This document shows, one piece after another, positions 11,349 through 35,111 of a DNA stretch of 64,000 bases. The translations under genes and the position numbers were made by a program. The stretch comes from Microbacterium profundi (GTDB lineage: Bacteria; Actinomycetota; Actinomycetes; Actinomycetales; Microbacteriaceae): NCBI RefSeq assembly GCF_000763375.1, contig NZ_JPSY01000004.1, positions 212,472 through 276,471 of the forward strand. The letters are read 5' to 3'. Position 1 is the first letter of the stretch. Each line of letters begins with the position of its first letter. The notes below the pieces were generated by a model that saw nothing but the letters and a program-made list of their open reading frames with translations, ran no database searches and was not told the origin of the DNA.

Positions 11349-11427
11349 GTGCGCTTCGTTCGGAGAAATGCGCTTGGCTCGGATGAAATCCGAGGTTTCG
11401 CTCCGAAGAACGAGCATTTCTCCGAAG
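11349..11427 (-). repeat. 79-bp palindromic repeat element, copy A (inverted)
   Basis: Read on the minus strand this is the same 79-bp layout as the copies at 33735 and 34772: a left arm beginning CTTCGGAGAA, a 12-base loop, a right arm, and a tail ending CGAAGCGCAC. The arms share CTTCGGAGAA-N-TGC and TTCTTCGGAGC. Its left arm on the plus strand has diverged more than in the other copies, so the hairpin is weaker. It lies alone between the clpP2 terminator and the SorC-type regulator. I see no open reading frame of its own in the 11317-11555 gap. Confidence 0.75.
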
Positions 11428-11555
11428 CACGTGCACGGCGAGGACGCGATGGCGACAGCGAATGCGCGCCCACAGTTGCGATCTATGCGCATGTGAGCAG
11501 CGGCATGCGCGACCGTGTGCTCATGCGTAGACTCGGAAACGGAAGGGAGGATGCC

Positions 11556-33644: not shown

Positions 33645-33680
33645 ATCCCGAGGGTACGTGCAACCGAGCGGATGCCGCGC

Positions 33681-33732
33681 GGCTAGCCAGTGCGCCGCGG
33701 CTAGCCAGTGCACCGCGGCTAGCCAGTGCACC
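33681..33732. repeat. 18-bp tandem repeat, nearly three copies
   Basis: GGCTAGCCAGTG recurs at 33681, 33699 and 33717 with a constant 18-base period. The units differ at one base (GCGCC against GCACC). The array abuts copy B of the 79-bp palindrome. Confidence 0.9.
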
Positions 33733-33734
33733 AC

Positions 33735-33813
33735 CTTCGGAGAACTGCAGCTTCTTCGGAGCCAAAAGGATGAACGGCTCCGAAGAACGTGCAGTTCTCC
33801 GAGCGAAGCGCGC
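33735..33813 (+). repeat. 79-bp palindromic repeat element, copy B
   Basis: The left arm at 33735-33763 begins CTTCGGAGAACTGCA and ends TTCTTCGGAGCC. A 12-base loop (33764-33775) separates it from the near-perfect complementary right arm at 33776-33803, and the tail reads CGAAGCGCGC. Arm, loop and tail lengths are identical to copy C. It lies 98 bases upstream of the DUF559 gene. Confidence 0.9.
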
Positions 33814-33911
33814 CGCACACCTGTTCTGCACATAAGCTGAACCACGAAACCTGTCCACTGCTCGTGCGATCGCTGCGGGCACGCCTCCGAGCTTCAGTGC
33901 AGAATCGCGGG

Positions 33912-34757
33912 ATGCTGCATCCGACTGCCCCTGACCCTGTCGAACTCGTGATCGAGTTGGGAGGTGTCGTGCGTACGCAGCGCCTGAAGAAAAAGGGAGT
34001 GAGCCGCTCGAGCCTGGAGCGCGCGGTGGCCGCCGGAGAACTTCTCCGGTTCCGACGCGGGTGGGTGGCGACGAAAGACGCGGACCCGGTGCTGGTGGCC
34101 GCAGCACGTGCCGGTGTCGTCGTCACCTGCATCTCGCAGGCTGCCAGGCTCGGGCTGTGGGTCCACGAGAAGCCCGAAAAGATTCATGTCGGGGCAGATC
34201 CGCATGGTGCAGGAGGCAAAACCGAGCGCGCGCACGTGCACTGGTCGATACCGATGCTGCCGCGGCATCCGGATGCCCTGGTCGATCCGATCGAGAACGT
34301 GCTCGCGCTCGTCGCGGACTGTGAGCCGTTCGAACAGGCGCTGGCTACTTGGGAATCCGCACTCAACAAGGGCCTGGTGACCATTCCAGGCCTCGCCGAG
34401 TTTCCCTGGAAGGACGCAGCGCGCGATCTGCTCGAGCGGGCAAATCCGTTCGCCGATTCGGGCACCGAGACATACATCCGAGAGCGCTTGCGGTGGTTGA
34501 AACTGAGGCTGCTGATCCAAACGTGGATTGCCGGGCACCGGGTCGACGTGCTCATCGGCAGCCGGCTCGTGCTGCAGATCGACGGCAAGCATCATGTGGG
34601 TGCCCAGCGAAGTGAGGACATCCGCCACGACGCCGAGCTCCGACTCATGGGATACCACGTGATCCGAGTCAGCTATCAGCAGCTGATGCACGATTGGCCC
34701 GCTGTGCAGGATCTGATCATGCGCGCCGTGGCGCAGGGCTTGCATCTCACGGCCTGA
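33912..34757 (+). CDS. DUF559 / Vsr-like nuclease with AbiEi-type N-terminal domain
   Basis: A 281-residue protein. Residues 10-60 form a winged-helix-like domain (VRTQRLKKKGVSRSSLERA) as in AbiEi-type antitoxins. The C-terminal third has the PD-(D/E)xK fold of DUF559/Vsr proteins: E186 and E191 in a helix, D212 in RVDVLIG, then LQIDGKHH with D224 and K226, followed by DAELRLMGYHVIRVSYQQL. Catalytic residues look intact, so it could cut DNA. I chose the ATG at 33912; the frame stays open upstream into palindrome copy B. The gene is bracketed by two direct copies of the 79-bp palindrome, suggesting a mobile or self-regulated unit (inference). Confidence 0.8.
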   Translation: MLHPTAPDPVELVIELGGVVRTQRLKKKGVSRSSLERAVAAGELLRFRRGWVATKDADPVLVAAARAGVVVTCISQAARLGLWVHEKPEKIHVGADPHGAGGKTERAHVHWSIPMLPRHPDALVDPIENVLALVADCEPFEQALATWESALNKGLVTIPGLAEFPWKDAARDLLERANPFADSGTETYIRERLRWLKLRLLIQTWIAGHRVDVLIGSRLVLQIDGKHHVGAQRSEDIRHDAELRLMGYHVIRVSYQQLMHDWPAVQDLIMRAVAQGLHLTA

Positions 34758-34771
34758 TCTCGGCGCACTAA

Positions 34772-34850
34772 CTTCGGAGAAGTGCACCTTCTTCGGAGCC
34801 GAATCCGCGTATGGCTCCGAAGAACGTGCAATTCTCCGAGCGAAGCGCAC
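34772..34850 (+). repeat. 79-bp palindromic repeat element, copy C
   Basis: The left arm (34772-34800) runs CTTCGGAGAAGTGCA to TTCTTCGGAGCC. The 12-base loop (34801-34812) is unrelated to copy B's. The right arm is 34813-34840 and the tail CGAAGCGCAC. It starts 14 bases after the DUF559 stop. A second partial tail, CTCCGAGCGAAGCGCAC, recurs at 34859-34875. Confidence 0.9.
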
Positions 34851-34911
34851 GCCGAGAGCTCCGAGCGAAGCGCACAACCCGGGGACTGGACGCACGCCGC
34901 GCCATGCCGCG

Positions 34912-34917
34912 TACAAT
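34912..34917 (+). promoter_or_regulatory. -10 element of ileS
   Basis: TACAAT, a near-perfect -10, lies just upstream of the T-box leader. No good -35 is visible at the expected distance, so the start site near 34924 is an estimate. Confidence 0.6.
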
Positions 34918-34923
34918 GGGTGC

Positions 34924-35111
34924 ACACGCTTTGATCCGGCCATCACCGGGGAGCTCTCGGAAGAACAGCCGAAAGGCCCAGTAGAACCGAGCGGGGCAGG
35001 CCCGTCATCGCCGCAGTGAGAGTGGCAGTGCCGTGAGGCGCAGCACGTGAGGTGGTACCGCGGTCCGTGAGGGTCGTCCTCGCACATCCGCCACGAGCAC
35101 TGCGAGCACAC
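34924..35111 (+). promoter_or_regulatory. T-box leader controlling ileS translation
   Basis: The core T-box GGTGGTACCGCGG is at 35051-35063, where the bulge pairs with the uncharged tRNA 3' end. Upstream, an ATC in CCATCACC near 34942-34949 is a plausible isoleucine specifier within stem I. Downstream, CTCGCA at 35079-35084 can pair with TGCGAG at 35101-35106, just before the ileS ATG, and no terminator hairpin lies in between. That fits the translational T-box class known for actinobacterial ileS: uncharged tRNA-Ile would free the ribosome site. Confidence 0.88.

Follow-up and report, generated by a model that had tools for sequence, protein, structure and literature searches.

DUF559 nuclease genes bracketed by private palindrome pairs in Microbacterium and part of the Actinomycetota

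It is still an open question by what means small palindromic repeats survive and spread in bacterial chromosomes, and it has been approached chiefly through the tyrosine transposases associated with repetitive extragenic palindromes (REPs), known as RAYTs. In the parts of two papers that treat RAYTs and the hairpin-forming REP pairs called REPINs, each repeat group has one endonuclease gene with its own palindromic repeats adjacent, cognate copies are scattered in intergenic DNA, and gene and repeat co-diversify (PMC3116915, PMC8266576). REPs usually exceed 100 copies per genome, according to a passage in PMC2817692. On the side of the nucleases, sections of a paper on Caulobacter VsrA, which also contains DUF559, describe it as required for a DNA damage response seen without a partner methylase, and VsrA shows that linkage to a methyltransferase is not always required; the main text of that paper holds no word beginning with “palindrom” (PMC12907096). 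Here we describe DUF559 nuclease genes with palindromes of their own, starting from 64,000 nucleotides of Microbacterium profundi (assembly GCF_000763375.1, contig NZ_JPSY01000004.1, positions 212,472 to 276,471 of the forward strand; this whole stretch is called the window). Microbacterium are soil bacteria. In the window, a gene for an AbiEi-type winged helix joined to a Vsr/EDxHD-type (DUF559) nuclease lies between two palindromes, B and C, and many DUF559 genes in Microbacterium and in part of the phylum are likewise bracketed by a palindrome pair private to the gene.

Palindromes B and C are direct repeats (Table 1); B ends 98 bases before the ATG (33912), and C begins 14 bases after the stop codon (34755-34757). 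A preliminary description of this stretch had reported an intact-looking nuclease gene at these distances between direct copies of a palindrome, the two being of identical geometry with hairpin-forming arms. The coordinates, the identity between the copies and the Pfam matches of the protein bear this out, and both copies have 27-nt arms around a 12-nt loop. Folded as single strands, B and C reach z-scores of -7.92 and -7.94 against dinucleotide shuffles, and 0 of 200 shuffles equal either. The inner arm pair has two matches within the window, with none expected. The whole element, four half-sites plus spacer, is about 85 bp long. Neither hairpin is followed by a T-run, and Rfam gives no family at gathering score between 33000 and 35500. 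The preliminary description had also read constant geometry with variable loops as a sign of copying or of selection of the fold. The loops do vary, and among the nine copies of the window motif in the genome the conserved parts are blocks of sequence; only 1 of 24 pairs has changed on both sides with pairing kept. With compensatory change nearly absent, the family gives no support to the idea that its fold is under selection: what is kept is the four half-site sequences, not the fold alone.

Are such pairs a general property of these genes? A search with PF04480 finds seven DUF559 genes in the M. profundi genome (G000), each flanked, when its surroundings are read, by palindromes of differing sequence. 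When all upstream flanks are compared with all downstream flanks, the same-gene scores are 39.5, 33, 40, 58.5, 65.5, 15.5 and 19, versus a median of 16.5 and a maximum of 29 off the diagonal, and five of the seven genes have a clear private pair. At a further locus, L007, the flanks on either side of the gene have in common a 17-base word without mismatch and a 14-base word in inverted orientation, and the downstream palindrome is shortened. There (G000:C1:219037-222216) the palindrome ends abruptly at the start of the next gene, presumably an IS30-like transposase, as would be seen after insertion of a mobile sequence into it.

All 39 genomes searched contain DUF559 genes. In a set of 36 loci from 30 genomes (the seven M. 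profundi genes plus the best-scoring single locus from each of 29 other genomes, hence not a random sample), the two flanks of a gene reach a score of at least 30 at 28 loci, versus 57 of 1,260 cross-pairs. Sixteen of these 57 score above 60, and we take them to be shared neighbouring genes. Matching flanks occur at 2 of 150 control open reading frames (ORFs), all from 20 stretches of the M. profundi genome. Among the 30 nearest homologues, a set that includes the window gene and one or more others of the 36 loci, flanks match at 20 loci versus 39 of 870 cross-pairs. In other genera of the phylum the figure is 17 of 54 usable loci (40 fetched, less one that is from Microbacterium and two truncated at contig ends, plus 17 others) versus 0.6% of cross-pairs; by eye, about 14 of the 17 are palindromic repeats, and L277, L278 and L306 resemble coding-stretch similarity. 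A downstream copy is common among matching loci. Among nine usable loci of stand-alone short DUF559 proteins (L131-L140), the flank score is high for L133 (54) and middling for L132 (28.5), too few for a conclusion.

The palindromes of one gene change together. We compared gene and motif at 59 loci with a clear motif, drawn from 70 rows (60 passed a score cut-off of 24 and one duplicate was removed; L204 was excluded by hand because its alignment extended into coding sequence). Motif similarity drops quickly: at 60-70% protein identity 9.8% of 204 pairs share a motif, while distant flanking sequence is still common to 61.8%, that is, most are at the same genomic site. At syntenic sites in this identity range, the mean similarity is 39.1 for the two palindromes of one gene versus 22.5 for orthologous palindromes. 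Same-gene palindromes are the closer ones in 129 of 149 pairs (33 loci), on both sides in 80 and with both-sides reversal in none; these pairs are not independent, and loci more than 97% identical were counted once. At 80-98% protein identity, 11 of 13 pairs show the opposite order on either side. That palindromes of one gene are closer to each other than to their orthologous counterparts is the signature of concerted evolution, in which both members of a pair are renewed together. Some members of the subfamily retain a GCGCTTC-like word within the half-site, with the remainder changing; the word is in both flanks at 11 of 30 loci (random windows of the two lengths contain it in 21% and 14%), a tendency only.

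Copies of a gene's motif also lie far from the gene. The genome-wide search in M. profundi covered three of the seven motifs, the window motif and those of L001 and L005. The window motif is found at nine places, seven of them distant from the gene; L005 has six copies away from its gene and L001 has one. Most motifs have no extra copy in a 464-kb sample of this genome, so copy numbers are low. M. arabinogalactanolyticum (G041) has its gene's motif at 16 places, of which 14 are distant from that gene; by eye all 16 align, each with four half-sites, GTGCGCTTCGYGCGGA, ordered ->-> <-<-. This motif has no copies in three other genomes and one weak match in M. profundi, which coincides with a copy belonging to the window family. 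In the reverse search, the M. murale motif gave one weak match among four genomes, M. murale's own not being one of them. No DUF559 gene is found within 1.5 kb of any of the 28 solo copies of M. profundi and M. arabinogalactanolyticum (tblastn, six DUF559 queries). When solo copies are matched to 77 gene flanks, the best match is a gene flank of their own genome for 11 of 14 in M. arabinogalactanolyticum and 13 of 13 in two M. profundi families, as expected from how these copies were found.

One solo copy, A, is present in one genome and lacking in others. Seven relatives with the same gene pair have a short interval there, and an alignment block of more than 100 bases is unique to M. profundi; a gain in M. 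profundi is a simpler reading than seven losses. Any target-site duplication at copy A is short and doubtful at most. The window gene itself varies in presence: with the window protein as tblastn query, 5 of the 19 Microbacterium genomes have a homologue immediately upstream of ileS, with a clear palindrome pair in three (G000, G001, G014), a weaker one in G005 and an unresolved one in G011. In G002, where an ORF homologous to the one upstream is present (42% identity), the site holds neither gene nor palindrome. The preliminary description had named flanking copies kept in strains without the gene as evidence against its idea, and G002 is not such a case.

The protein of the window gene matches PF04480 (DUF559, 32.5 bits) and AbiEi_4 (25.4 bits), both above curated cut-offs, and more weakly AbiEi_3_N, MTES_1575 and RAP; no Y1/HUH transposase family appears in this Pfam scan. 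The ratio of nonsynonymous to synonymous substitution versus M. murale is 0.080, and the gene is under purifying selection. The nuclease fold is Vsr-like, and the acidic and histidine residues of the nuclease domain, its predicted catalytic residues, are conserved. The closest fold is the catalytic domain of the homing endonuclease I-Bth0305I, a likeness to be read with the weak AlphaFold model in mind; Foldseek alone finds nothing that reaches an E value of 0.001. PHROGs and NCBIfam assign the protein no family, and none of 34 pattern-matching stretches of viral contigs encodes a relative (tblastn); we therefore do not class the gene as a phage gene.

Table 1. Features of the window, in window coordinates
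Feature	Position	Strand	Remarks
Solo copy A of the window element	11349..11436	+	between genes that we take to be clpP and a SorC-like regulator; lacking in seven relatives with the same gene pair
Palindrome B, upstream of the gene	33735..33813	+	four half-sites of ~17 nt, order ->-> <-<- (by eye); 3' end CGAAGCGC; arms 33737-33763 and 33776-33802, 93% complementary
Gene for 281-aa protein, AbiEi-type winged helix plus Vsr/EDxHD-type (DUF559) nuclease	33912..34757	+	intact ORF
Palindrome C, downstream of the gene	34772..34850	+	85% identity with B across 84 nt; arms 34774-34800 and 34813-34839
Additional lone half-site AGCTCCGAGCGAAGCGC, directly after C	34857..34873	+	2 mismatches versus TTCTCCGAGCGAAGCGC

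Around the locus, five neighbouring ORFs were scanned: an ArsA ATPase, an ORF without a family, a class I tRNA synthetase (IleS), a Mur-ligase-like protein and CstA. None of the five is a methyltransferase or an AbiEii nucleotidyltransferase toxin. Directly 5' of palindrome B (33673-33732) there are three tandem units of an 18-bp repeat, none of which is seen at the M. murale locus. The ileS leader (34914-35110) contains AGAACCGAGCGGGG and GGTGGTACCGCGG, which we take to be T-box-like; Rfam has no match there at gathering score.

We lean towards the view that gene and palindromes form a nuclease with its cognate repeat, similar to REPIN-RAYT in its working and separate in origin. The AbiEi-like winged helix would read a half-site of about 17 bp, and since the element has four half-sites in the order ->-> <-<-, it would be occupied by a dimer or a tetramer of the protein. 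Its Vsr/EDxHD-type nuclease domain might then nick or cut the element or a partial target, and repair from another copy would place the element into the break. Copying of this kind could spread solo copies, keep the flanking pair alike and let the motif change along with the specificity of the protein, and the gene would remain held between two elements.

Several observations weigh against this view. At the M. profundi locus L006 the flank test fails: the gene is at a contig end, its flanks share just an 11-base word, and the pair is doubtful. At this locus (G000:C1:1-2561) several TGACCCCGGGCCA-like units follow the gene, then a run of GCGGCAGCAAAGT units, and the upstream partner is weak. 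Solo copies number only 1-14 away from the gene, and their aligned parts have 71-88% identity with the query, so spread is slow or old, and no target-site duplication is seen by eye in the 16 aligned copies. Motif similarity correlates with protein identity (Mantel r 0.31, reached in 0 of 2,000 permutations), but distant flanks correlate more strongly (r 0.40), and the correlation alone thus reflects common descent and does not show co-adaptation. The AlphaFold model is poor, with a mean predicted local distance difference test score (pLDDT) of 56.6 from six sequences and values below 50 for residues 68-184.

Further contrary points come from other genomes. For 18 solo copies from 12 genomes, all chosen by similarity to the window motif and compared with the subset of DUF559 genes fetched from these genomes, the own flank is the best match in just 4. 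Excluded from the 18 are L166, which is adjacent to a gene, all copies in G449 and G368, for which there were no fetched flanks, the second of the tandem copies in G324, and repeat rows for one place. No own fetched flank scores above 20 in G332, G404, G374, G308 or G373, and the copies in G353 give a mixed result. G381 carries at least three copies of the window element (L161, L176, L182) and no DUF559 homologue at E <= 1e-70 in an assembly that is 88% complete; its copies are possibly orphan repeats. Solo copies may thus outlive their gene. The preliminary description had proposed either a mobile repeat-plus-nuclease unit, with the nuclease in the place of a RAYT, or an autoregulated gene with the palindromes as operators, and had suggested a comparison of the co-occurrence of repeat and gene with chance. 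The gene-specific flanks, solo copies, concerted evolution and copy A favor such a unit; the co-occurrence does not. Across 198 genomes the repeat and the gene subfamily are not associated (Fisher p 0.39): the subfamily is in 11 of 14 other repeat-bearing genomes and in 120 of 183 without the repeat, where repeat counts are lower bounds from four scored candidates per genome. We attribute the missing association to the subfamily being widespread.

Could the palindromes simply be operators? AbiEi represses its own gene through inverted repeats, and the window protein has an AbiEi-type DNA-binding domain with one palindrome upstream of its gene. An autoregulator with a small regulon, repressing its own and other genes and changing together with its sites, as transcription factors can, while the nuclease acts elsewhere, is the alternative we take most seriously, and it is still rather unlikely: it leaves unexplained a second full element so close behind the stop codon and the downstream copies at other matching loci, four half-sites and a spacer exceed the needs of an operator, and copy A comes and goes as a block of more than 100 bp. 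It is also improbable, more so than an autoregulator, that the gene is a selfish homing unit, whose nuclease would cut chromosomes or incoming DNA with an unoccupied single palindrome so that repair inserts the palindrome-bracketed gene, with solo copies being empty targets or scars of lost genes. The likeness to I-Bth0305I, the position of the gene between two target-like copies and its repeated occurrence directly upstream of ileS would suit such a unit. For each motif, however, a single gene stands against as many as 14 solo copies, and the 28 of M. profundi and M. arabinogalactanolyticum have no DUF559 gene nearby, so the gene seldom homes into them, and the sole clear empty site, in G002, retains no palindrome.

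Ordinary gene conversion can keep neighbouring repeats alike, and hairpin-forming DNA does flank the gene, so that the palindromes might be passive bidirectional terminators or insulators. We give this little credence: the hairpins of B and C lack a following T-run, matching flanks are rare among control genes, and far-off solo copies carry the private motif of the gene. Mere coincidence, or a repeat spread over the genome and found around this gene by accident, is scarcely believable. Copies do exist elsewhere in the genome, but distinct motifs accompany the DUF559 genes of a single genome, with the diagonal dominant in five of seven, and the tests over 36, 30 and 54 loci point the same way.

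In these bacteria an enzyme unrelated to RAYTs appears to accompany its own palindromes, with several different pairs in one genome. These are a natural panel of matched enzyme-site pairs. They also give a testable function to the many proteins for which DUF559 or AbiEi-like is at present the main description, and they suggest where proteins that bind or cut DNA at long and changeable sites might be obtained.

The described systems each share part of this arrangement. Vsr and VsrA have the same nuclease fold with its conserved acidic and histidine residues; the window protein differs in the AbiEi-like winged helix joined on, the palindrome bracket and the lack of a methyltransferase among the five neighbouring ORFs. 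The window gene differs from that of the EDxHD homing endonuclease I-Bth0305I in its bracketing by palindromes and in the AbiEi-like character of the DNA-binding part. The AbiE type IV toxin-antitoxin system has a similar winged helix, but here it is fused to a nuclease and no AbiEii toxin is among the five neighbouring ORFs. Like miniature inverted-repeat transposable elements, the palindromes are small scattered units, present or absent at a site; unlike them, they have no clear target duplication (16 aligned copies; copy A doubtful). The open-licence literature yielded nothing on palindromes around DUF559 genes, and the partnership of a nuclease with a small mobile repeat looks undescribed. 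The closest likeness in arrangement is to REPIN-RAYT, in that a gene sits beside its own palindromic repeats and cognate repeats are scattered in the same genome. The enzyme, however, is a winged helix plus a Vsr/EDxHD-type nuclease, and the repeat is about 85 bp with four half-sites; the number of solo copies, counted for four motifs, is 1-14. Because no HUH transposase was found in the Pfam scan and copy numbers are low, the DUF559-palindrome system is not a member of the RAYTs. We see an even chance that it represents a new class of elements in the Actinomycetota, in which Vsr/homing-type nucleases copy private four-half-site palindromes and the pair co-evolves by fast change of specificity: a second, independent version of the REP-RAYT lifestyle that works without an HUH transposase.
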